42,865 nt of DNA from Nitrospirales bacterium (lineage in GTDB: Bacteria > Nitrospirota > Nitrospiria > Nitrospirales > UBA8639), in assembly GCA_022824735.1 (NCBI GenBank), contig JAJDZI010000119.1, positions 1 to 42,865 on the forward strand, given 5' to 3'. Shown piece after piece: positions 8,238 through 42,865 of this stretch. The position numbers were made by a program, and so were the translations under genes. How positions within the stretch are numbered: position 1 is the first letter of the stretch; every line of letters begins with the position of its first letter. Below the pieces are notes generated by a model that saw only the letters and a program-made list of their open reading frames with translations, was not told the origin of the DNA and searched no databases.

Positions 8238-9283
8238 ATACCGCGCCGGCAAGCGCAGACCTGTTTGATGCGTTCGATCGTCCCCTGCGGAGTCTGCGCG
8301 TGTCCGTGACGGACCGGTGCAACTTGCGGTGTCGCTATTGCATGCCGGAGGACGAATATGCATGGCTTCCCCGTGAAACCCTCCTGAGCTTCGAAGAAAT
8401 CAATCGGTTGGTGGAGATCTTCGCCGAGTTCGGCGTGGATAAAGTCCGGTTGACGGGCGGGGAGCCTTTGCTTCGTCGTGACCTGCCTGCCCTTATCCGC
8501 CTGTTGAAGCGACAGACCGCTATCCGGGACGTTGCCCTGACGACGAATGGCATCCTGTTGGATGAGCAAGCCGGATCCCTTCGCGACGCCGGTTTGGATC
8601 GCATCACGGTCAGCCTGGACACGCTCAACCCCGACAAGTTCAAGAACCTGACCAAGCGGGATACGTTTGACCGGGTTTTACAGGGCATTGCGCACGTCAA
8701 GACGGCTGGATTGACCGGACTCAAAATCGACACGGTTGCAATCAAGGGATTCAACGACGACGAGTTCGTCGAGTTGATCGAATATGGAAAAAGCGTCGAT
8801 GGGGAGGTGCGATTCATCGAGTACATGGACGTCGGTGGCGCGAATGATTGGGGCATGGAAAAAGTCGTTTCCCAGGCGGAGATCCTGCAGACGTTCCGGC
8901 AGGCCTACGGCTCGGTTGAGCCCATTCGGGAAAACAGTTCGGCTCCGGCCCGGCGCTATCGATTGCCGGACGGCACGACGTTCGGGATCATTCCCTCCAC
9001 GACCACGCCGTTTTGCGCGACGTGCGACCGGAGTCGTTTGACGGCGGACGGCATGTGGTACTTGTGCCTCTATGCCAGGCACGGATTCGATTTACGGGAA
9101 CCGCTCCGCATGAATGATGAGGCGGCCTTGCGAGACCGCATCCGGTCGGGGTGGCGGCAACGGGTCGATCGCGGTGCCGAAGACCGCAAAGCGCTGGAGT
9201 CCTCGAGCGGGCGGGGCCAGTTTATCCAGATTGACGAACTGCGTCAGGATCCACATTTGGAAATGCACGCGCGCGGCGGCTGA
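8234..9283 (+). CDS. moaA: GTP 3',8-cyclase MoaA (radical SAM)
   Basis: 349 residues. The N-terminal radical-SAM cluster motif is CNLRCRYC (CxxxCxxC). The C-terminal second 4Fe-4S cluster ligands are in FCATCDRSRLTADGMWYLCL. The protein ends in ARGG, matching the conserved C-terminal GG that inserts into the MoaA active site. It converts GTP to 3',8-cyclo-7,8-dihydro-GTP, the substrate of MoaC. The ATG at 8234 is preferred over an upstream in-frame GTG because of the ATGA overlap with moaE. The last 120 bases before accD hold a hairpin and no gene. Confidence 0.97.
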   Translation: MNTAPASADLFDAFDRPLRSLRVSVTDRCNLRCRYCMPEDEYAWLPRETLLSFEEINRLVEIFAEFGVDKVRLTGGEPLLRRDLPALIRLLKRQTAIRDVALTTNGILLDEQAGSLRDAGLDRITVSLDTLNPDKFKNLTKRDTFDRVLQGIAHVKTAGLTGLKIDTVAIKGFNDDEFVELIEYGKSVDGEVRFIEYMDVGGANDWGMEKVVSQAEILQTFRQAYGSVEPIRENSSAPARRYRLPDGTTFGIIPSTTTPFCATCDRSRLTADGMWYLCLYARHGFDLREPLRMNDEAALRDRIRSGWRQRVDRGAEDRKALESSSGRGQFIQIDELRQDPHLEMHARGG

Positions 9284-9333
9284 TTGTTCCTGCCGTTGTT
9301 GGTTCTTGCGTCCCTGATTCGATCACCGATAGA

Positions 9334-9382
9334 TCCCCGATCAGGTTCCCGATGACAGGCGTCGGGGGACAGTCATCGGGGA
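9334..9382. promoter_or_regulatory. Nested inverted repeat between moaA and accD
   Basis: TCCCCGAT (9334-9341) pairs with ATCGGGGA (9375-9382), and inside it GTTCCCGA pairs imperfectly with TCGGGGGAC. It lies just before the accD ribosome binding site (GGGAGAAG) with no T-run. It may be an mRNA structure or a decayed copy of the ATCGGGGA repeat family seen at 3559-3590 and 15472. Confidence 0.4.
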
Positions 9383-9403
9383 CAGGCCCGGGAGAAGATC
9401 TCG

Positions 9404-10249
9404 ATGGGGTTGTTCAAGAAGGGCTCGTCGGAACGGCAGGAAAAGGGCAAGCTGAACGTCGTCGAAGGCATGTGGATGAAATGCGCGTTTTGCCGCGCCA
9501 TCGTCTACCGCAAAGAAGTCGATCAGAACTTCAAACTCTGTCCCAAGTGCGGATACCACTTTCCCCTGTCGGTCCCCGAACGCATTGACGTCTTGTTCGA
9601 TGCCGGCAGTTTTCAGGAGTGGGACGCCGGCTTGTCTCCCGGCGACCCCCTGGCGTTTGTCGATACACAACCCTATCCCGAACGAATCGAGATCTCCCAG
9701 AAGAAAACCGGCAGGCGTGATGCCATCGTCACGGGAGAAGGGACGATTCAAACTTGTCCGGTCATCGCGGGGATCTTTGATTTTGGATTCATGGGCGGCA
9801 GTATGGGGTCCGTGGTGGGAGAAAAGATCTGTCGCGCGGCCGACCGGGCCATCGAGGGAAACACGCCGTTCCTGCTCGTGACCACGTCGGGCGGAGCGAG
9901 AATGCAGGAGGGCATCCTCTCGCTCATGCAGATGGCCAGGACGTCGGCGGCGATGGCGCGGCTTCATGAAGCCGGCGTGCCGTTCATTTCGCTCCTGACG
10001 GATCCGACGTTCGGGGGAGTCACCGCGAGCGTGGCCATGCTGGGTGACGTGATCCTGGCTGAACCGAAAGCCCTGATCGGGTTTGCGGGCCCGCGCGTGA
10101 TCGAACAAACCATCAAGCAGCGGCTGCCGGACGGATTTCAGCGCGCGGAATTTTTGCTCGAACATGGTATGATCGACGCGATTGTGAGCCGGCCCCGTCT
10201 TCAGCAGACGCTTCACGCTGTTTTTCGGCACTTGGGCGCCGGTGTCTGA
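9404..10249 (+). CDS. accD: Acetyl-CoA carboxylase carboxyltransferase subunit beta AccD
   Basis: 281 residues, normal length. An N-terminal zinc ribbon (CAFC ... LCPKC, about residues 27-49) is followed by the carboxyltransferase core with GFMGGSMGSVVGEKI, TTSGGARMQEG, DPTFGGVTASVA and GFAGPRVIEQT. AccD pairs with AccA to transfer carboxyl from biotin carboxyl carrier protein to acetyl-CoA, making malonyl-CoA for fatty acid synthesis. It is followed by folC, an accD-folC pairing common in many bacteria. Confidence 0.97.
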   Translation: MGLFKKGSSERQEKGKLNVVEGMWMKCAFCRAIVYRKEVDQNFKLCPKCGYHFPLSVPERIDVLFDAGSFQEWDAGLSPGDPLAFVDTQPYPERIEISQKKTGRRDAIVTGEGTIQTCPVIAGIFDFGFMGGSMGSVVGEKICRAADRAIEGNTPFLLVTTSGGARMQEGILSLMQMARTSAAMARLHEAGVPFISLLTDPTFGGVTASVAMLGDVILAEPKALIGFAGPRVIEQTIKQRLPDGFQRAEFLLEHGMIDAIVSRPRLQQTLHAVFRHLGAGV

Positions 10250-31072: not shown

Positions 31073-32070
31073 CGGGGCCGTATCGATTCGCCACGTGTTT
31101 CCGGACGTGGCTGTATGAACGAGGATGGTTGGCGCGACGCCGGTTGCCTCGTCCGGTGGTCAGTGTCGGGAACCTCACGGTCGGTGGTACGGGTAAAACC
31201 CCCATGGCCATGTGGGTGGCCGGCAAATTGTTGGGGTATGGGAAAAAGCCGTGTATCCTCAGCCGGGGATACCGTCGCAAAAGTCAACGGGAATTTTTGC
31301 TGGTCTCCGATGGAACGTCGGTCTTTGCCGGACCCCGGGAGGCCGGTGACGAACCCTATTTGATGGCAACGCGATGTCCGGGCGTCGTCGTGGCCGTTGG
31401 CGCTGATCGATATGAACTGGGTCGTTGGGTCTTGAGTCAACGACCCATTGACTGTTTCATCCTGGATGACGGTTTTCAACATTTGAGCCTCGACCGTGAC
31501 GTGAACCTGTTGCTGGTAGACAGTTCCAGTCCTGCCGGAATACAGGCACTGCTTCCCGTGGGAAAACTTCGGGAACCGCTTGGCGAAGCCAGGAGAGCCT
31601 CGGATATTATTCTGACCCGGGTTGACGATGAATCCATGATTGCCGACGTACTGGATCCGATCCGGGCGGCCCTGGGTTCCGCGATCGATCCCATTACCAC
31701 GAGATTCACGCCCAAAACGTTGATGGGCGCATCGGAATCGATGCCGCTTTCCGGTGTTCGCAGAAAACGGGCGCTCCTCTTCAGCGGTATCGGGAATCCC
31801 GAATCATTCCGCCGGATGGTCACGGCATTCGGCGTGCAGGTGGTGGATGAACTTGTCTTTCGGGATCATGAAGCATACGGCCCTTCCAGGGTTGCGGAGA
31901 TTTATCGACGCGTTGAGCGGAGCCGTCCGGACGTGGTGCTCACGACGGAAAAAGATTTGGTAAAGGTTGAACCGGATTGGTCGGTTCCGGTTCCTCTTTT
32001 TGCCGTGTGTCTCGATTTGGAGTTTTTGGATGGCGAGAGTCGCTTGGAACGTACGTTGGCGGCCTTGTGA
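31066..32070 (+). CDS. lpxK: Tetraacyldisaccharide 4'-kinase LpxK
   Basis: 334 residues. Walker A in VSVGNLTVGGTGKTP (about residues 28-42), ILSRGYRRK, and the Walker B-like FILDDGFQHLSLDRD. LpxK is a membrane-associated kinase that phosphorylates the 4' position of the lipid A disaccharide. It is the last gene of the operon and converges on the unrecognised gene at 32124-33185. The 53-base gap shows no convincing terminator. Confidence 0.96.
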   Translation: MLTGPYRFATCFRTWLYERGWLARRRLPRPVVSVGNLTVGGTGKTPMAMWVAGKLLGYGKKPCILSRGYRRKSQREFLLVSDGTSVFAGPREAGDEPYLMATRCPGVVVAVGADRYELGRWVLSQRPIDCFILDDGFQHLSLDRDVNLLLVDSSSPAGIQALLPVGKLREPLGEARRASDIILTRVDDESMIADVLDPIRAALGSAIDPITTRFTPKTLMGASESMPLSGVRRKRALLFSGIGNPESFRRMVTAFGVQVVDELVFRDHEAYGPSRVAEIYRRVERSRPDVVLTTEKDLVKVEPDWSVPVPLFAVCLDLEFLDGESRLERTLAAL

Positions 32071-32123
32071 GCGAGGACACAACGCAGCCCTGCGCCCGAT
32101 AGTGCAATAAAGCAGAGGTTCCT

Positions 32124-33185
32124 TCAGGGAAAAGGGGAGAGCGGAGCATACGCCATAGGATAGGCGAACAACTCCTCGAGCCAAGCGGTCATCGCGGTCA
32201 TGGGCAGGGGCATCATGTTCAACCGGACTTCGAGTTGATAGTGATTGTCCATCCCCATGATTCCGACGATGGCGGCGGCATCCGGGTAATCGGGAAGAAT
32301 CGCTTGTGTTCGAAATTCGGAAACGGTGGTGTACAACCGGCCCTCCTTTCCCACAATATCCAGCAGGGCCGGAAGGTCCGTCAGGCAGGTGTGCGCGGAG
32401 CAGCGGTACACGGTTCGCACGCCGGGCTCGATAGTCTTGAATTCATCCAGGGTTCCCTGGGAAAAGCCGGTCAAATAGATTCGAACCGTTGCCGCCGGCA
32501 GCCGATGCGTCGAAGCCAATCCGCTGGCCGGTACGAGGAAGGCGAATGGGTCGGAGGAATTGAATTCGAATTGGCACGGTCCGAACGCATCCGGCCAAGA
32601 ACAAAAAAACGGAACGTCTTCGTGAGTGTTGCGAAGCGTGACCCGGTCCTTTTGAATCGACACGTCTATCGGTAAATCAAGCAGGTCAATGGCTTCGCGG
32701 AACGCCGCCTGCCGTTCCTCCAGCCAGACCGGCCGTTGGTGGGGGGCAGAGGGTTCGCCTTGGGCAATAATCGTCGCGGTATGGAACCGGACCCTGATGA
32801 ATGAGTGCGTATGGCGGAATCCGACCCAGAACATGGCAATGGGCTGCAGGGTGGCCAAATGGACGGAAAGGTGCCATGGGTGGCTGATGGAGCAATACGC
32901 GCTGACGGATTGGTGGCGTTGGAACGTCGAATGGTAGCGGCCGGCCAGAAGAAAAAAATCGTCTTTCCAATCATCGAGCACATGAACCATCGTCACGTCT
33001 TCCAGGGGCCATTGATCGAGTCGTTGGATGGCTCCCGGCGATGGAACCGGCCACTCCTCGATGTAACAGATGCCTTCTTTATCAGGATCAACGTGACGCA
33101 ATGTTCTGGCGCGCAGACGGTCGAGCAGGTCGAGGACTTGAGGGAAACTCAATGCCTGACGGGATTCCCAGCGTTGCTCACGCAT
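32124..33185 (-). CDS. Unrecognised conserved-looking protein
   Basis: 353 residues from the ATG at 33185 (MREQRWESRQALSFPQVLDLLDRLRART); a start 19 codons upstream would add a hydrophobic Cys-containing tail and looks less likely. There is no signal peptide, transmembrane helix or motif I can name. The N-terminal 30 residues are basic and helical; the rest alternates beta-like and charged segments with scattered Cys and Trp. GC matches the lpx operon, so it seems to be a resident gene, the last before the mobile island. Function unknown. Confidence 0.65.
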   Translation of the reverse strand: MREQRWESRQALSFPQVLDLLDRLRARTLRHVDPDKEGICYIEEWPVPSPGAIQRLDQWPLEDVTMVHVLDDWKDDFFLLAGRYHSTFQRHQSVSAYCSISHPWHLSVHLATLQPIAMFWVGFRHTHSFIRVRFHTATIIAQGEPSAPHQRPVWLEERQAAFREAIDLLDLPIDVSIQKDRVTLRNTHEDVPFFCSWPDAFGPCQFEFNSSDPFAFLVPASGLASTHRLPAATVRIYLTGFSQGTLDEFKTIEPGVRTVYRCSAHTCLTDLPALLDIVGKEGRLYTTVSEFRTQAILPDYPDAAAIVGIMGMDNHYQLEVRLNMMPLPMTAMTAWLEELFAYPMAYAPLSPFP

Positions 33186-33530
33186 ACCGGCATTCCCGCA
33201 GAAAATGAAGAAGCTGATGGCGTTTAGGGTGGACTTGCACACCCCCTTCCGATCCCCCGTTCAAATCCCGCCGGTTCCATTGGAGATAGTCGGTAAATTA
33301 GGGCCATCACTGGTTGTTGATGTCTTATGATGAATGGCGGAGAGGGTGTTCTGCAAACGATACGCAAACCCCCTATAAACAGGAGCGTTTCGTCGATCAT
33401 GTCATGTGTGTTCCCAAGTTTGTTCCCACAGACGGAGGCACTCCCCCCGCAGGATGGGACTTCGTGCGACGGGGCTCCTATCATACTATTTCTGCCAGAC
33501 CTGGATTTCAATGCGGAGGAGGGACATTAT

Positions 33531-33692: not shown

Positions 33693-33899
33693 ATGTCGAC
33701 AGATCAAGACGTGCTTCTAACCCGCCGTGAGGTTGAGCGACGCACGGGGCTCAGCCGCAGCACTCTGTACCGAAAAATGCGCGACGGGACCTTTCCCGTG
33801 CCGCTGAAAGTCTCTGAACGGGCCGTGCGCTGGCGTGAGAGTGACATTCGCGCCTACGTCGATTCGCGTCCACGATCCTATGGCGAGACGGCAACATGA
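33693..33899 (+). CDS. AlpA-family DNA-binding regulator (helix-turn-helix)
   Basis: 68 residues. LLTRREVERRTGLSRSTLYR is a MerR/AlpA-type helix-turn-helix, followed by the family pattern FPVPLKVSERAVRWRESDIRAYV. The leader has AAAGGAGGTGAT (33677-33688), a perfect complement of the 16S rRNA 3' end, eight bases before this ATG; in-frame starts at 33684 and 33687 lie inside it and are rejected. AlpA-type proteins control excision or integrase expression in P4-like islands. The integrase of this island lies 8.7 kb away, at the other end. Confidence 0.88.
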   Translation: MSTDQDVLLTRREVERRTGLSRSTLYRKMRDGTFPVPLKVSERAVRWRESDIRAYVDSRPRSYGETAT

Positions 33900-33989: not shown

Positions 33990-34239
33990 ATGCGAATTGA
34001 ACGCCGTGATCCCACGCTCAAATACCCCCGGGCCGTCCGAGAAGAAAAGCGCCGACTTGTCCTAGACTGGCTCCTGGAATTTCAATTCTCCTCGGTCGAC
34101 CTGCTCGCCCGCCGCCTCGGCCTGACGTACCAAAGTTCCTATAAATTCTTTCGCGCGCTCCTCGACGCCCAGATCATCCAATCATTCAAGAGTGTCTATA
34201 CCAACCAGGTCCGCTATCTCATGCTCACCAAGGCCGGAG
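33990..34239 (+). pseudogene. Replication-relaxation/MobC-like protein, 5' part (broken by IS30 element)
   Basis: AAGGAGG lies seven bases before the ATG at 33990. The sequence begins MRIERRDPTLKYPRAVREEK and continues as a winged-helix domain (LVLDWLLEFQFSSVDLLARRLG, YKFFRALLDAQIIQSF, RYLMLTKAG). It resembles the N-terminus of replication-relaxation (MobC-type) proteins of mobilisable elements. It is interrupted after ...LTKAG by the insertion sequence. Removing 34240-35276 (the element plus one GGAG copy) joins it in frame to the 3' part as ...LTKAGVDMLQVAGRD. Confidence is high for the interruption, moderate for the family. Confidence 0.75.
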
Positions 34240-35229
34240 GGTGGATTCACATTTGAAGTGCAACAGATGGTTTCTAAAAACCTCGGCAGGGGTTTGATAG
34301 CCGAGGCATTGACGCGGCGTATTATTATAGACTTGGACCAGGTGCGTAAAGTGTTCATCGGAGAGCGTGGCCAAGTTGGTTTTACGGGGCAGGGTGCGGC
34401 GTAAGCGCCCGATCGCGTTTTCGATTCCGCCCTTCTGCCAAGGCGCATGCGGCTCACAAAAAAACGTTTCCAGGCCCAAGGCATGGAGCGTGTGATGTTG
34501 GGCGAATTCCGTACCGTTATCGAAGGTGAGGGTTTGCCGCCAGGTTGGGGGTAGCGGGGCCAAGAGCGCCGCCAGCAGGTGGGCGATGGGCGCGGCGGCC
34601 TTGCCGGGGGGCCGGGCGGCGAGGAGCAGGCGCGAGTGGCGTTCGTGCAGGGTCAGGACGGCTTGGCCATAGAGCCGGAACAACATCAGATCGGCCTCCC
34701 AGTGGCCGGGGGTCTGGCGGTCGGCGGCGGCGGCGGGCCGCTCGGTCAGCGGGCGGCGCAGGGTGATGAAGGACGCGGGGCTCCGGCCTTTGGTACTCCG
34801 GCGGCCGCGTTTGGCTTTGGCCCGGGGCAGATAGTGCCGCCACGCATAGTTGGTTTTGCGGGCCATCTGGGCATAGATGAAGCGGTAGATGGTTTCGTGG
34901 GCCATGACCTTCCGGTGCTGCTCCACGGCCAGGCGGCCCGCCACTTGTTGCGGGGACCAGCCGGCTTGAAGCCGGGCCAGGACCCGGGCGCGGAGGTCGG
35001 GGTCGCGGTCGAGCTTGGACCCGCGCCAGCGCCGGGCCCGGGCTTGTTGGTCGGCATAGCCGGGCTGGTAGCCCTGGGTGCGCGCGGCATTGCGTTTCAG
35101 TTCCCGAGCCATGCTTGATGGCGCGCGATCCAGAGTTGCCGCAATTTGGCGGAGCGAGTGTCCCGCGGTGTGTAAGTAGGCCATTTGACAGCGGTCTTCA
35201 AGGGTGAGATGCGTATAAGAGTGTCCCAT
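34225..35229 (-). CDS. IS30-family transposase (DDE)
   Basis: 334 residues. An N-terminal IS30 helix-turn-helix (HLTLEDRCQMAYLHTAGHSLRQIA) is followed by the DDE core: first Asp in GHWEADLM, second in LTFDNGTEF, Glu in KGGIENAIGRLRR. All are present, so it looks intact. The reading frame runs through the left inverted repeat (giving HFKCEST) and only stops at 34225, in flanking host DNA. The last few residues and stop codon are therefore supplied by the gene it landed in. AAGGTG precedes the ATG. Confidence 0.92.
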   Translation of the reverse strand: MGHSYTHLTLEDRCQMAYLHTAGHSLRQIAATLDRAPSSMARELKRNAARTQGYQPGYADQQARARRWRGSKLDRDPDLRARVLARLQAGWSPQQVAGRLAVEQHRKVMAHETIYRFIYAQMARKTNYAWRHYLPRAKAKRGRRSTKGRSPASFITLRRPLTERPAAAADRQTPGHWEADLMLFRLYGQAVLTLHERHSRLLLAARPPGKAAAPIAHLLAALLAPLPPTWRQTLTFDNGTEFAQHHTLHALGLETFFCEPHAPWQKGGIENAIGRLRRTLPRKTNLATLSDEHFTHLVQVYNNTPRQCLGYQTPAEVFRNHLLHFKCESTLRPW

Positions 35230-36191: not shown

Positions 36192-37094
36192 ATGCCTAGA
36201 GACCGTTATGTGATCACCTTCCCACCGTACTGTGACAATCAAATCGATACATATAAAAGGGTTTTCAATGATTACTGGAGATTCATGAAAACCGATTCAT
36301 CTGCAGAAATTATTTTTGAGTGTGGAGATATACGCTTGATTTACCCATTCGGATTAAATGTTATTGCCCTTCTCATCAGAAGTTTTTTGCAACAAAGGTC
36401 AAGAACTATTCTTTTTGTTCACCCGACAGATTCTGCCTGCGAGAGATATTTTGAGGATCAAGGTTTTTACAAAGAATTTCTCATTCAGGACAGAGATAGA
36501 ACCATCGAAGCTTCCCTTCAAAGCACCGGTGTTGGGCTTCGCAGGATGGTTGCATTCGAGCCATTGTATTTCGACACGATTGCCATGTGGTTGAATAGAT
36601 ATTTGTTCTTGCCCGAGGAAAGTATTCAGGAGGCTATAATTGTTCCCCTTCCAGAGATCGTCAACAATGTCATAGACCATAGCCGATCTTCTATGGGTTG
36701 CTATATCAGCGCTCAAGCCTATCCCGATAAAAATAAATTGATGTTATCAGTTGCCGATCTCGGAGTTGGGTTTCTCAATACTTTACTTCCCAAATATCCA
36801 TCATTGAGTGCAAACGAAGGCGCTATTGCATTAGCCATCCAAGAAGGTATATCATCAAAATCTAAAGACCGTAATATTGGTGCTGGGTTATCTATTCTCT
36901 GCGGTTTTCTCAAACAGCGCGGCAACTTGGAAATAATTTCTATTGACGGGCTATGGCAACAGGACGCTGCTGGAAACTCGTTAAGTAGGACGTTGCCCTT
37001 TTCTTTTCCCGGGTCCTGTATTAACATTGAATTTGATAATCAAAAGATTGCCGAATTCATGTTGAGTCAAGACGATGAAAACATTGATCATTAA
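36192..37094 (+). CDS. GHKL ATPase with N-terminal STAS-like region (pair partner of DUF4325)
   Basis: 300 residues. The C-terminal half is a histidine-kinase-type ATPase domain: N box E155-x3-N159-x3-H163 (LPEIVNNVIDHS), G1 box D189-x-G191-x-G193 (VADLGVGF), G2 box GAGLSIL near 230-236. There is no histidine phosphotransfer region or receiver. The N-terminal half (about 35-95, AEIIFECGDIRLIYPFGLNVIALL) resembles a STAS-like fold. Such ATPases act as anti-sigma-type kinases or stand-alone switches. The ATG at 36192 has no clear ribosome binding site; a TATGAT at 36176 would make a nearly leaderless transcript. It overlaps the next gene by 20 bases. Confidence 0.75.
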   Translation: MPRDRYVITFPPYCDNQIDTYKRVFNDYWRFMKTDSSAEIIFECGDIRLIYPFGLNVIALLIRSFLQQRSRTILFVHPTDSACERYFEDQGFYKEFLIQDRDRTIEASLQSTGVGLRRMVAFEPLYFDTIAMWLNRYLFLPEESIQEAIIVPLPEIVNNVIDHSRSSMGCYISAQAYPDKNKLMLSVADLGVGFLNTLLPKYPSLSANEGAIALAIQEGISSKSKDRNIGAGLSILCGFLKQRGNLEIISIDGLWQQDAAGNSLSRTLPFSFPGSCINIEFDNQKIAEFMLSQDDENIDH

Positions 37095-37386
37095 AGACAT
37101 TGTTGGTCCATATTGTGGGACATATGAGCAGGGAGCGAAGCTGTCTCATATCATCTATCCTTTGCTCAAGTCTTCCCCAAGAGTCGCTTTGGACTTTCAA
37201 GGAGTTGGATTAACTTCTTCGTCATTCTTCAACGGCGCTATCGTCAATCTGTTGCCAGATTTTACCGACGATGATGGAAGGCTGCGTATCGTCTTTTGTA
37301 ATTTAACGCCACGCGATAATTTTATTTTGCAGCACACGCTGAAAGTTGCGAAACATAGGGATGCAGCGATTGCGCAATTCCGTTAG
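37075..37386 (+). CDS. STAS-like domain protein (DUF4325)
   Basis: 103 residues. VALDFQGVGLTSSSFFNGAIVNLL is the DUF4325 pattern: a strand ending in DF, then a Ser-Ser-Phe loop where STAS anti-sigma antagonists carry their phosphorylated serine. Overlap with the upstream ATPase gene indicates a fixed pair. By analogy with SpoIIAB/SpoIIAA, the ATPase could phosphorylate or bind this protein at Ser in TSSSF. No sigma factor or obvious target gene lies nearby. Function unproven. Confidence 0.75.
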   Translation: MKTLIIKDIVGPYCGTYEQGAKLSHIIYPLLKSSPRVALDFQGVGLTSSSFFNGAIVNLLPDFTDDDGRLRIVFCNLTPRDNFILQHTLKVAKHRDAAIAQFR

Positions 37387-38168: not shown

Positions 38169-38197
38169 TTTCCGACTGTGACCACAACAGGTATAAT
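38169..38197 (+). promoter_or_regulatory. Promoter-like sequence before the metallophosphoesterase gene
   Basis: A perfect TATAAT (38192-38197) with a 17-base spacer to a weak -35 (TTTCCG, 38169-38174). Predicted start near 38204, about 40 bases before the ATG at 38246. Confidence 0.5.
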
Positions 38198-38245
38198 TTC
38201 CTCAACCACGCAAACGAGACTCACCCTAAAGTTAGTTGATTGTTC

Positions 38246-40030
38246 ATGCGTCCGATTCGTTGGCTCCATATCTCTGATTTTCACCTGCACGAAAAGCAAT
38301 CCTCAAAACAGGATGCCGTGTTGGATGCAATGCTTCATGACATCAAACAGCGAGGCGATGGCGATGTGATATTCGATTTTGTATTAGTTACCGGCGACCT
38401 TGCCTTTTCTGGAAAAGAATCTGAGTACGAGCTGGTCGAACCTTTTTTTACTAAACTTTCTTCGACGATCGGGTTGTCATGTAATAGAATTTTTTGTGTT
38501 CCAGGCAATCACGATGTTGACCGTAGTCGGCAAAAAATGTCCTTTGCCGGGGCGCGATGTGAGCTTCGTAGCCAAACCGACATTTACTCGTTCCTTGCAA
38601 ACGTCGAGGAGCGTGAAATGTTACTTACGCGCCAAGCTAACTTCCGCAAGTTTCAAGAGCGTTTTTTCTCAGACCAGACAAGAAATCGCACCCAAGACGA
38701 TCTGGGCTATGTTTCCGTAATTGACGTCAATGAAATTCGAATTGCGATTATCGGACTAAACTCTGCGTGGCTCGCCGAAGGAGGTCAATCAGATGATCGC
38801 CAGCTTCTAATTGGCGAAGAACAGGTTAGAAATGCTGTCAAAATTGTGAACACAGTCAATCCCCATGTCATCATCGGCATGGTGCACCATCCATTCGACT
38901 ATCTGCGTGATTTTGATCGATGGCCAGCCAGTCGCTCTTTGGAAGAAATCTGCCACTACTTTCACTTCGGGCATCTTCACTTTCCTGACGCGTCCAGCAT
39001 TGAATCGTATTCGGGGCGCTGCCTGACACTTGCTGCAGGCGCGTTGTTTGAATCGCGCGAGGCATACAATGGCTATACCACGGTTACGCTCGACGTGCTA
39101 CGTGCCAAGGCTGACGTTACCTTCATTCACTTTGATCCCAATAAAGGTGTTTTTTCTAATGAGTCCAAGAAAAGCTATCCACATGAAGTGGATGCAGCCG
39201 TTTCGTGTACTATTAGTGATCTAGGTTCTGCCATCGAACGATATTGTCCGGTCGGTGTAGCCAATTTCACTCATTATCTTGCCGCGCTTCTTTTAGGTAA
39301 TATGTCTGAGGTCCCGATGCTCGTAGACAACGTAGTTGCCTTCAGAACCACCAACCTGCTGCAAGAACAATCTGAGGATGAATTTGCGGCTGTTACGAAG
39401 GACTTCCTAGGTGTCGGCAATGTTATCAAACTACTACACAATCGGGAATCCCTTGACGAAATACTTAACGCGCACGGTCATCCGATCACTGTGTATGGTG
39501 CGAAGCTAAAGGAAGTTTGCGAAACTTATCATGAATTACGGGCAGAGCTTGAGGCTCGTGAAACAAATGCCCGGAAGCTTGCTGGCACAGGGCCTAGAGT
39601 TCCCTTCCAGCACACGTTGGCATTACTGGATGAGCTTCGCTCTGCGGAGGATTGGAGTGCACTTCGTGAGCAGGCTGAGCGGAGTTGCGACCTAAAGAAT
39701 ACAGTTGTGGCGGCTGAAGCCAAGAGAATGTTAGCGCTATGTCTGGCCCGTTCGACCGAGCAAGGGGAGCACCAACGCGCTGCCAGAATTTATCAAGAAC
39801 TTATTGTTTCAGCAGAAGGACAGGCCGACGACTGGGCTAGCTTGGCAACACTGCAGATTGATGACGAAGATAGTGCGCAAGCCGAAGAGACGATAAGAAA
39901 TGCCATTACGACTTTTCCAGTTTATGTTGACCGTTTTATCGAGATCGGGAGGAAAATTCTTGAAGCGACGGGGGATGTTGAATTTCGGGAATGGCTATCG
40001 GCTCAAAAGAAGGACGGGAGGAAAATATGA
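38246..40030 (+). CDS. Calcineurin-like metallophosphoesterase with C-terminal helical/TPR-like region
   Basis: 594 residues from the ATG giving MRPIRWLHISDFHL. All five metal-site motifs are intact: D11-x-H13, G50-D51, G87-N88-H89-D90, H214-H215 (MVHHPFD) and G242-H-x-H245 (GHLHFPD). The catalytic domain occupies about residues 1-290. The remaining 300 residues are helical, with a TPR-like stretch near 495-575 (AAEAKRMLALCLARSTEQGEHQRAARIYQELI, ASLATLQIDDEDSAQAEETIRNAI). Substrates of this superfamily range from DNA and cyclic nucleotides to phosphoproteins. Its stop overlaps the next start by four bases (ATGA), so both proteins are made together. Confidence 0.85.
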   Translation: MRPIRWLHISDFHLHEKQSSKQDAVLDAMLHDIKQRGDGDVIFDFVLVTGDLAFSGKESEYELVEPFFTKLSSTIGLSCNRIFCVPGNHDVDRSRQKMSFAGARCELRSQTDIYSFLANVEEREMLLTRQANFRKFQERFFSDQTRNRTQDDLGYVSVIDVNEIRIAIIGLNSAWLAEGGQSDDRQLLIGEEQVRNAVKIVNTVNPHVIIGMVHHPFDYLRDFDRWPASRSLEEICHYFHFGHLHFPDASSIESYSGRCLTLAAGALFESREAYNGYTTVTLDVLRAKADVTFIHFDPNKGVFSNESKKSYPHEVDAAVSCTISDLGSAIERYCPVGVANFTHYLAALLLGNMSEVPMLVDNVVAFRTTNLLQEQSEDEFAAVTKDFLGVGNVIKLLHNRESLDEILNAHGHPITVYGAKLKEVCETYHELRAELEARETNARKLAGTGPRVPFQHTLALLDELRSAEDWSALREQAERSCDLKNTVVAAEAKRMLALCLARSTEQGEHQRAARIYQELIVSAEGQADDWASLATLQIDDEDSAQAEETIRNAITTFPVYVDRFIEIGRKILEATGDVEFREWLSAQKKDGRKI

Positions 40031-42294
40031 GCACAAGCGGTGATTCATTCGAAGTGGGCCTTCATTTCGAGAACCTTCTCCGAGCAATTTCCAAGGAAAT
40101 ATATGAAACACCGCATGCTTTTATCCGTGAAAATGTCCAGAATGCTGTCGATGCAGTTCGTATTCAGGCCCTTCGCGAGAAAGTTGAACCCTCCGATAAC
40201 CGATACGGCATCGTAATTTCTGTCGATGACCGGACGGTCTCGGTGCGAGACAACGGCATAGGCATGTCTAGGGAAGCTCTCCAGAATTACTTTTGGACGA
40301 TGGGAGCAAGTGGAAAGCGAACACAGGAAGCACGGGAGGCTGGCTGTGTCGGAATGTTTGGTATCGGCGGGTTTGCAAACTTCGGTGTATGCGACATGCT
40401 AGAAGTTACTTCGCAAACTGATGAAGAGTCTATTGGCACACTCACAAGACTCTCAGCTAATGATATCGAGGAAGCTAGTGCTAAAAGGCCGCCGATAATT
40501 CCGTCCGTAACTGTTCAGAGATCAGAGGCCGCTGGGCCTCGTGGAACCATGGTGGTCGGTCGCATGAAGAAGAGTCCTAATGTTGATGACCTCAAGACTT
40601 ATCTAAAGGGTTTTGTCCGTTTCGTTCCGATAGCCATTAAATTCAATGGCGAGATGATTTCACAACAAGTTTTTGGAGATGTTGACGATCGCGCTAACTT
40701 GAAACCTATTGGCTCCCTCAGTGAGACATGGACTTTAGACAATATCACCGTTGCCGGCCGACTTTTCGAGGACCGTGGCCATGCGCTCATAATAGCAATC
40801 GAGGATTTTGCCCGTAATGGTGAGCAATTAAATCTTACAGGCCAATTACGTTTCGAGAACGGTGCCATTGACGTTTTCAAGCGCGGGTTTAAGCTTTGCG
40901 CAACTCAAATTCCGAGCACAATCGGCATCTCAGGTCGGCTTGATTGCGACCTGTTCGCGCCCACCGCAGGGCGTGACTCATTGGATGCAGGCACCACAAG
41001 CTTGTTGGGCGAAATCAGTAAACTTCTAGAGAATGTGGCTATTGACGCGATATTCGACTCACCGGAGAGAATTTCCCAGCATACACGGGTCTTCCGGCTT
41101 GTGGTTCAGCGTGGCTTCATTGGTAAAATGGGCAAAGTGCTCGTTCGATTGGTAGACGGCGATGAAAAGGTATTGTTGGATATAAAACGACGTGCAACAG
41201 AAGGTAACGTTGGAGTTTTCTTCGGAACGGCACAGAAGCAAGCCCTTAACCAAATCATGCAAGCGCGCGGTCATATTGTTGTTCAATTGTCGGCTGATCG
41301 CTATCGCCGGGAGGCCGAAAAGCGATACTTGGAGATGTACTGTAAAGCGAAACCGTTCGACGGGATGATCGATTGTACAGAGGTCTATGACAATATGACA
41401 CGCTTTGAGCGCATGTTTCTTGCCGAAATCGAACAGAACATCTCCAGATCATACGAGATAGCGGAATTCAAGTTGGTTGCCGGGCACCTCACTGAAGATA
41501 TACCTGTTTTTGTCAAGGAGCGTTCCGGTAGTCATCCCATAGAAATATTTGTTGACGTCCGCCACGGGGAGGTAAAAAAACTCGAAAGACTCGGATTGAC
41601 ACCACTTACGCATTCCCTTATTTCCGTATTTTTTCACGAGTATATAGGGCCCTCTCTCAAAAAATGGAGCCCGCGTTTTTTTGGCGATGGGGCATTGAAT
41701 CTCGAACTATTTGCCAAACGGCGTTCGGAGTTATGGATCCTCATCAAGGACGATATCAGCGTTGTCCGTAAGGGGGGGAAGCGAGTGATAGTGACGCGCG
41801 AAGATGTCAAGGTGATCCATGTCGGCGATGAGCCACTACCGGCACATCCCGCTAAGGATCAGACGCATCGCCTGCTTCAGATCATTGACGATGATAGCGG
41901 CACTGACTGGGCAGGATATTACATTCGGTTACCTGATTACGCCTTTCGAGCTTATGGCGATTTGCTCCCCGATTGCGATACCTATGGAGTTGTCTGGATT
42001 GGCAATAAGATTACATTTGTCGCTTCTGACGGCATCAGCGCCCAGTTCCAATACGAAATTCGTCTTGATGAGATTATTGCCGCTGAGGTGGAAGGTAAGC
42101 TTCGTGTAGAAGGAGCCTTGGAACTGACACGACCGATTCAGGAGATGTACGGGAGTGCTTACTTCCCAATCCCGACTGTTTTAGAGAGGTTTCTTGTACC
42201 AGCGGACAACGAGGAGATACGCTTGGATCTATACTGCCAGTTGATCGATATGAGAACCAGTAAATTGTGGGACATTGATAAGCCGGACTCATAG
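40027..42294 (+). CDS. Hsp90-like GHKL ATPase, large (755 residues), partner of the metallophosphoesterase
   Basis: The ATG at 40027 has GGAGG eight bases upstream and overlaps the preceding stop (ATGA). The N-terminal domain is of the Hsp90 type: E35-x3-N39-x2-D42-A (AFIRENVQNAVDAVR), D75-N-G77-I-G79-M (VRDNGIGM), and the lid motif VGMFGIGGFANFG (108-120). The middle region (about 170-350) includes KSPNVDDLKTYLKGFVRFVPI, as in Hsp90-type proteins, but the C-terminal 400 residues do not look like HtpG. It is not the housekeeping chaperone. AT-rich cargo, followed by the convergent integrase. Confidence 0.82.
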   Translation: MSTSGDSFEVGLHFENLLRAISKEIYETPHAFIRENVQNAVDAVRIQALREKVEPSDNRYGIVISVDDRTVSVRDNGIGMSREALQNYFWTMGASGKRTQEAREAGCVGMFGIGGFANFGVCDMLEVTSQTDEESIGTLTRLSANDIEEASAKRPPIIPSVTVQRSEAAGPRGTMVVGRMKKSPNVDDLKTYLKGFVRFVPIAIKFNGEMISQQVFGDVDDRANLKPIGSLSETWTLDNITVAGRLFEDRGHALIIAIEDFARNGEQLNLTGQLRFENGAIDVFKRGFKLCATQIPSTIGISGRLDCDLFAPTAGRDSLDAGTTSLLGEISKLLENVAIDAIFDSPERISQHTRVFRLVVQRGFIGKMGKVLVRLVDGDEKVLLDIKRRATEGNVGVFFGTAQKQALNQIMQARGHIVVQLSADRYRREAEKRYLEMYCKAKPFDGMIDCTEVYDNMTRFERMFLAEIEQNISRSYEIAEFKLVAGHLTEDIPVFVKERSGSHPIEIFVDVRHGEVKKLERLGLTPLTHSLISVFFHEYIGPSLKKWSPRFFGDGALNLELFAKRRSELWILIKDDISVVRKGGKRVIVTREDVKVIHVGDEPLPAHPAKDQTHRLLQIIDDDSGTDWAGYYIRLPDYAFRAYGDLLPDCDTYGVVWIGNKITFVASDGISAQFQYEIRLDEIIAAEVEGKLRVEGALELTRPIQEMYGSAYFPIPTVLERFLVPADNEEIRLDLYCQLIDMRTSKLWDIDKPDS

Positions 42295-42369: not shown

Positions 42370-42865
42370 TCAGCCGTGCCACGGAATCACGTCGGCACTT
42401 GGCGCACCTGTGACGTAGTCGGCCCACTTTTGCATCACCGATCGCCGCCGATCGAACAGATCGGAACGTTGATAGGCCCCCTCCACGCCTTTGACGACAT
42501 GGGCGAGACGGGCTTCGGCCACTTCGCGTGATACGTTCACGTCCGCACACCACGACCGGAAACACGCCCGGGCAATGGCATGGGGCACGCCATTGATCCC
42601 GTTCTCTCGGACTAGCTTGGAAATCGTCGCGTCGGACAGGGCCTTGCCCTGTGCGCTCGGAAACACCAGGGCCGACTCACTCTTGGACTGGGCCTCTTGC
42701 AAGATCTCACAGGCCCGCGATGACAACGGCACCCGATGCGCTCTGCCGGTTTTGGTGCGGGTGACCGGAATCACCCACATCTTGTTGGGGACATCGATTT
42801 CAGCCCATTCTGCCAGCCGCACCTCGCCGGACCGGGTCGCGGTGAGGACTTGAAACTCAAAGCAG
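42370..42865 (-). CDS. P4-type tyrosine integrase, C-terminal part (runs off right edge)
   Basis: The frame is open to the window edge, so the N-terminus lies outside. Visible motifs: catalytic Arg in LTATRSGEVRLAEW, the KTGRAHRVPLS beta segment, PHAIARACFRSWC (His and second Arg), AEARLAHVV, and the catalytic Tyr in EGAYQRSDLFDRRR. The His-to-Arg spacing (HAIAR) is one residue longer than the common HxxR. P4-type integrases insert islands at tRNA 3' ends, and this one reads inward from the right, so the attachment site is expected beyond the window. A weak hairpin plus T5 (about 42325-42357) may end the opposing transcript. Confidence 0.92.
   Translation of the reverse strand, partial: CFEFQVLTATRSGEVRLAEWAEIDVPNKMWVIPVTRTKTGRAHRVPLSSRACEILQEAQSKSESALVFPSAQGKALSDATISKLVRENGINGVPHAIARACFRSWCADVNVSREVAEARLAHVVKGVEGAYQRSDLFDRRRSVMQKWADYVTGAPSADVIPWHG

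Follow-up and report, generated by a model that had tools for sequence, protein, structure and literature searches.

Analysis of a 42,865-nucleotide stretch of the Nitrospirales bacterium assembly GCA_022824735.1 (the window, which makes up contig C32 in full; the genome measures 2.3 Mb) identified a pair of overlapping genes encoding a calcineurin-like metallophosphoesterase (MPE) and an Hsp90-like ATPase. The pair probably constitutes a mobile two-gene conflict system in which an Hsp90-type ATP clamp controls a phosphodiesterase effector directed against phages or mobile elements. Because the two genes are linked in all 22 family members and in some of them lie within known anti-virus operons, the pair looks like an immune system run by an Hsp90 machine, and the most likely conflict role is an anti-phage one. 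The operon, the invariable linkage, the co-divergence of the two proteins, their intact catalytic residues, the mobile and defence context and the homology to the N-terminal (N) and middle (M) domains of Hsp90 are directly established. The pair is arranged as follows.

38192–38197, + strand: TATAAT hexamer with a putative promoter role, from sequence
38246–40030, + strand: MPE, calcineurin-like metallophosphoesterase, 594 amino acids (head, residues 1–312; all-helical TPR-like C-terminal domain, residues 323–590)
40016–40030, + strand: Shine-Dalgarno-like GGGAGG followed by an ATGA stop/start overlap (translational coupling), from sequence; the 4-nt overlap occurs in 15 of 22 pairs
40027–42294, + strand: Hsp90-like ATPase, 755 amino acids (N-domain of GHKL type; middle domain containing the catalytic-type Arg316; putative partial C-domain, ending near residue 552; additional residues 553–755)

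Linkage and co-divergence of the two genes

Both reading frames are intact in the window and, as the first-pass annotation had described, the two genes share an ATGA overlap, the TGA stop codon of the MPE gene (40028–40030) running over the ATG of the Hsp90-like gene (40027) with the GGGAGG just upstream. The MPE start is best set at ATG 38246, since a 43%-identical Poribacteria relative begins at the same residue (MRPI...). The TATAAT box also named in that annotation is present as a hexamer, but the promoter scan, which found no more promoter-like sites in the region than in shuffled sequences, called none at 38192–38197.

A four-sequence profile scanned against 84,980 species genomes returned 80 loci. 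Loci that reach more than 110 bits with the Hsp90-like protein form one family; the remainder scored below 57 bits and were HtpG-like. Together with the window, a same-genus copy, two loci from whole-genome searches, three viral contigs and two plasmids, the scan family gives 22 members with upstream sequence, and the MPE gene lies directly in front of the Hsp90-like gene on the same strand in every one of them. None of the HtpG-like loci of the same scan has an MPE gene in front. On another two viral contigs the copy is truncated in the gene, and these stand outside the count of 22; the same-genus copy (G199), being decayed, was counted for linkage but excluded when co-divergence and residue conservation were assessed. 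Pairwise distances among the MPEs and among the Hsp90-like proteins are correlated with r = 0.95 over 18 pairs, a value reached by none of 10,000 permutations, and the correlation is 0.91 when the clade of the window is removed. The complete linkage and this correlation rule out chance neighbours. Adjacency among homologues, which had been set beforehand as a check on the prediction of a two-gene system, thus gives it strong support together with the translational coupling and the co-divergence: the two genes travel together. Comparison of the two Poribacteria copies yields a non-synonymous rate (dN) of 0.144 and a synonymous rate (dS) of 0.545 for the MPE (dN/dS ~0.26), and 0.053 and 0.345 for the Hsp90-like protein (dN/dS ~0.15), indicating purifying selection on both proteins, with a weaker constraint on the MPE. 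An apparent truncation of the MPE of Rhizobium sp. 007 was rejected, as the annotation covers only the 3′ part (9510–9968) of an open frame that is full length (8496–9968).

Structural features of the two proteins

The MPE matches the Pfam family Metallophos (PF00149) with 44.5 bits, above the curated cut-off of 21.5, and the eight metal ligands D11, H13, D51, N88, H89, H214, H243 and H245 are invariant in 18 sequences, in agreement with the earlier claim that all calcineurin-like phosphoesterase motifs are present. The structural model (mean predicted local distance difference test score, pLDDT, 79.5) predicts a diesterase-type head and a tail of 12 helices (residues 377–590) packed as an antiparallel helical array, and the helical C-terminus noted at first reading is thereby borne out. 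The subfamily of the window carries one canonical 34-residue TPR motif at residues 527–560 (W-L-A-...-A-...-A-...-P); the Pfam scan of the MPE gave no TPR match. The best structural match of the model is chain B of 9a6c, a YydD-YydB model (Z 28 over 278 residues, 22% identity), followed by Rv0805, Lmo2642, purple acid phosphatases and Mre11.

The Hsp90-like protein matches HATPase_c_3 with 42.8 bits (cut-off 25), and nothing else in Pfam covers residues 161–755. The GHKL residues E35, N39, D75, G79, G112, G114 and T174 are invariant in the 18 pairs, as is R316, in agreement with the Hsp90-type ATP-binding motifs recognized earlier. Profile alignment with HtpG (hhalign, 99.5%) extends over residues 4–423 and pairs R316 with the NVSR arginine in the middle domain of HtpG, the residue that in Hsp90 contacts the γ-phosphate of ATP. 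The structural model (mean pLDDT 77.7, low at residues 550–612) superposes on full-length Hsp90 chains over residues 3–552 with Z ~24 and a root mean square deviation of ~8 Å; MORC2, SMCHD1 and topoisomerase VI are lower-ranked matches (Z 18–19). From this superposition and the profile match, the protein is a divergent Hsp90 (N, M and probably part of the C-terminal dimerisation domain, C) carrying an added region, rather than a GHKL domain joined to an unrelated tail. The description of a 400-residue C-terminus unlike HtpG was therefore too strong, although it holds for residues ~553–755, which have no counterpart in the whole-model comparison with Hsp90, a region that was not searched on its own. 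The scores are under the NCBIfam equivalog cut-offs both for HtpG (63 against 371 bits) and for the HSP90 family protein (73 against 455 bits), and by its sequence the protein is a divergent Hsp90 relative, not an HtpG orthologue. A plain HtpG duplicate is ruled out by these scores and by the constant coupling to the MPE gene. Both enzymes look active, judging from their intact catalytic residues.

Island setting and genomic contexts

The surroundings of the pair in the window comprise the following features.

33240–33281, strand not applicable: left edge of the island, where conservation ends; tRNA-Ser(gct) in five relatives, GTTCAAATCCCGCC in the window
33693–33899, + strand: AlpA-type prophage/island regulator on the other side of the island (Phage_AlpA, 57 bits)
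34225–35229, strand not stated: IS30-family transposase within the island
36192–37386, + strand: neighbouring cargo outside the pair, a GHKL-fold protein overlapping a STAS-like DUF4325 protein (Pfam)
42370–42864, − strand: tyrosine integrase, C-terminal 164 amino acids, PRK09692-like, cut by the contig end; the mobility gene of the island

Comparison with the genus shows that conservation stops at ~33240, just past which a tRNA-Ser(gct) is present in five relatives and at which a stretch resembling a tRNA 3′ end is left in the window. Beyond this edge the order is AlpA regulator, IS30 transposase, the GHKL and DUF4325 genes, the MPE/Hsp90-like pair and the partial integrase, and the pair has 48% GC compared with 56.6% for the core (window up to 32 kb). 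The position of the edge, the AlpA, IS30 and integrase content and the shift in GC show that the pair was rightly placed in an integrase island, and the integrase adjoining it is confirmed by its domain matches (Phage_integrase, 48 bits; PRK09692, 85 bits) even though the contig ends within it. The neighbouring cargo at 36192–37386, with a GC content of ~42%, encodes a 300-residue protein with weak GHKL-type ATPase motifs that overlaps the 103-residue STAS-like DUF4325 protein, and is a candidate for a separate two-gene module in the same island. Next to lpxK, near the island edge, lies a dispersed repeat of ~57 bp (32068–32124) that most genomes of the genus carry in many copies and for which no stable single-strand fold was found.

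The family is spread over many phyla, plasmids and viral contigs but is patchy, occurring in 0.5–4% of genomes: two of the 296 sampled from the phylum, two of 49 from the family, two of 399 from the order to which a Burkholderiales relative belongs, and two of 85 from the phylum that includes the Poribacteria relative. The highest identities, 60% and 52%, are to copies in Poribacteria and Acidimicrobiales, whereas the same-genus copy (G199, L100 5041–8128) is only ~25% identical and decayed, with the MPE split over two frames and ~240 internal residues missing from the Hsp90-like protein; this pattern points to horizontal transfer. About 14 kb from the decayed pair is a gene (L108 2436–3932; G199:C45 22436–23932) for a 498-residue protein that begins like another GHKL/Hsp90-type ATPase (YDNPLAIYREYVQNAADA).

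Elsewhere the pair is carried by conjugative plasmids of Pseudomonas and Rhizobium, by IMG/VR viral contigs and by contigs with RepB partition genes, and in Thiotrichales it lies near an integrase with an Arm-DNA-bind_3 domain; no full-length homologue was found in phage records. In two Poribacteria genomes (G326 and G748) the pair sits within a complete HmaA-HmaB-HmaC operon. HmaA (565 and 562 bits) lies on one side of the pair and HmaB (up to 382 bits) on the other, and HmaC (231 and 243 bits) is located farther out. The G748 operon seems to serve as an insertion site for defence cargo, since an NsnA-like protein (PADLOC, 469 bits; L104 5651–7144) and ABC-type ATPases also lie between HmaA and the pair. 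A BrxHI helicase gene (1527 bits) directly follows the pair in Polyangiaceae, and an ABC three-component operon is located ~3 kb from it in Pseudomonas. The patchy occurrence, the islands, conjugative plasmids and viral contigs, and the nesting in Hma operons support the view that this is not a housekeeping locus.

Proposed mechanism, alternatives and known systems

A clamp-controlled effector mechanism fits the anatomy of both proteins. The Hsp90-like protein would form a dimeric ATP-driven clamp that binds the MPE, probably through its helical TPR-like tail, and keeps it inactive or armable. An infection signal, which may be a phage protein bound as client or a shift in ATP or in the load on chaperones, would alter the clamp cycle and in this way release or activate the phosphoesterase, which would then hydrolyse phosphodiester bonds in nucleotides or nucleic acid, so that either phage replication or the cell itself is stopped. 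The physical complex, the direction of control, the trigger, the substrate and the defence role itself are what we infer here. A bolder version, which we hold tentatively, is that a true Hsp90 machine, with N, M and C domains, would serve as ATP-driven switch for a TPR-tailed phosphodiesterase effector in an immune system widespread among bacteria; this would be a prokaryotic immune sensor of the Hsp90-client type, in parallel to Hsp90-PP5 and to the control by Hsp90 of nucleotide-binding leucine-rich repeat receptors (NLRs).

Several observations weigh against a conflict system of this kind. The TPR assignment consists of a single motif in the long-tailed subfamily, and short-tailed members gave no clear one. 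The nearest MPE folds include cyclic-nucleotide and glycerophospho-diesterases, purple acid phosphatases and Mre11, and the fold does not give the substrate. The neighbour count proposed with the first-pass annotation was divided: integrase or known defence genes lie beside some pairs (Hma, BrxHI, the Thiotrichales integrase), but most neighbourhoods contain no recognized defence gene within flanks of ~8 kb, in part because contigs are short and the flanks only of that length. The many neighbourhoods of the latter kind, and the fact that Hsp90 homologues are normally chaperones, would suit an accessory stress chaperone operon carried on mobile elements with no role in conflict, its phosphoesterase repairing or recycling nucleotides. 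The patchy spread across phyla, the nesting in Hma and the kinship of the MPE to anti-phage effectors make this improbable.

The coupled two-gene operon on mobile elements, in which the Hsp90-like gene was never seen without the MPE, is also what would be expected of a toxin-antitoxin style addiction pair, with a toxic phosphoesterase folded or smothered by the Hsp90-like ATPase as its antidote and any phage protection arising as a side effect when disturbance of the pair frees the toxin. This interpretation overlaps with that of an armed effector, and sequence does not separate the two; however, proteins of 594 and 755 amino acids are large compared with usual toxin-antitoxin pairs and the nesting in Hma operons points to immunity, and we consider addiction unlikely. 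A regulatory rather than killing function would follow if the pair were a bacterial counterpart of Hsp90-PP5, the MPE being a protein phosphatase recruited via its TPR-like domain to dephosphorylate Hsp90-bound clients. The Hsp90 N-M homology, the Metallophos fold and the canonical TPR motif are in line with this, and the ATPase matches, alongside other Hsp90 chains, those of the Hsp90-PP5 structures 8gae and 8gft. Such a counterpart nevertheless has little likelihood, as the nearest folds of the MPE are phosphodiesterases and YydB and not PPP phosphatases, the TPR motif is differently placed (PP5 has its TPR at the N-terminus), the ATPase sequence has no C-terminal MEEVD and the setting is one of mobility and defence. 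Thus the preferred reading remains that of an Hsp90-type clamp controlling a phosphodiesterase effector.

The Hsp90-like protein qualifies for no model in NCBIfam (2026) or PADLOC (2023), and the pair is absent from the defence-gene libraries searched. No description of it was found in open-access full text, which leaves subscription papers mostly uncovered, so that a published description may exist; no open-access paper was found that combines anti-phage, Hsp90-like and metallophosphoesterase, and the pair is unmentioned in the BREX and helicase papers examined. The earlier statement that the pair matches no named system stands as far as NCBIfam, PADLOC and open papers go, but its MPE half belongs to a known effector theme: systems of an NTPase with a phosphoesterase effector are already known with GTPase or ABC-type partners, whereas an Hsp90 with a middle domain as regulator is new in that we found none. 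Confirmation would add a chaperone ATPase to the known immune switches of bacteria. Plant and animal NLRs have a long-noted dependence on Hsp90, for which the pair would then provide a simple bacterial comparison. It also makes the nature of a phage-triggered Hsp90 client testable in a tractable system of two proteins, and is directly searchable with alignments of both proteins.

The MPE head (residues 4–311) scores 131 bits against DS-8 (NF053861; cut-off 790), over profile positions 1–292 of 994 only, 155 bits against PDC-S60 of PADLOC, over profile positions 1–307 of 1027, and 72 bits against the DS-9 anti-phage model; in none of these does it qualify as a full-length member. A homologous phosphoesterase head is common to DS-8, PDC-S60 and the MPE, but those models describe a single protein of ~1000 amino acids, whereas the MPE here combines the head with a helical tail and a separate Hsp90-like partner. 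A related MPE on a Sphingomonas plasmid is likewise a single protein of ~1065 amino acids. Related MPE genes also lead GASH-type operons on Agrobacterium, Klebsiella and Paraburkholderia plasmids. On the Agrobacterium plasmid pAtCFBP6624 (L115) the MPE-GASH conflict operon adjoins an S8 peptidase/ATPase pair and a phospholipase D-like gene. The calcineurin-superfamily phosphoesterase is the commonest effector domain of GASH-type GTPase conflict systems (Kaur et al. 2020, PMC7159879). These GASH/DO-GTPase systems resemble the pair in having a related MPE as first gene of a plasmid-borne NTPase-system operon, but their partners are GASH and other GTPase-system proteins; beside the MPE of the window no GASH or GTPase gene was seen, only the Hsp90-like gene that follows it. 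Given this kinship to DS-8, DS-9, PDC-S60 and the MPEs of GASH operons, the head appears to be a plug-in effector that is combined with various NTPase regulators; the new element is its Hsp90-like partner.

The closest solved or modelled fold to the MPE, YydB, occurs in the YydB-YydD system of Bacillus subtilis (model 9a6c), which likewise pairs an MPE with an ATPase partner; unlike the partner here, YydD is not an Hsp90. Hsp90 and HtpG themselves share the GHKL N-domain residues E35, N39, D75, G112, G114 and T174 and a middle domain aligned through residue 423, and the Hsp90-like protein differs from them in its extra region (553–755), its mobility and its constant coupling to an MPE gene. 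An HATPase N-domain in a defence setting is also a feature of the BbrUII/HgiDII restriction enzymes, MzaB and TmtA, but these align weakly (37, 12 and 12 bits, respectively) and with the N-domain only, the Hsp90 middle domain being outside the matches. The PADLOC authors chose the name Hma because the system is often found together with Septu (PMC8565338); later it was treated as BREX-related (PMC12839542). Although it hosts the pair between HmaA and HmaB in the two Poribacteria genomes, no HmaA, HmaB or HmaC turned up when the window genes next to the pair were scanned, and most relatives likewise have the pair without Hma; membership of Hma is therefore rejected as a general rule, and the pair is a passenger. 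Eukaryotic Hsp90-PP5 likewise joins an Hsp90 to a TPR-bearing enzyme of the metallophosphoesterase superfamily, with a different domain order, subfamily and operon setting, and is a parallel for which homology is not claimed.

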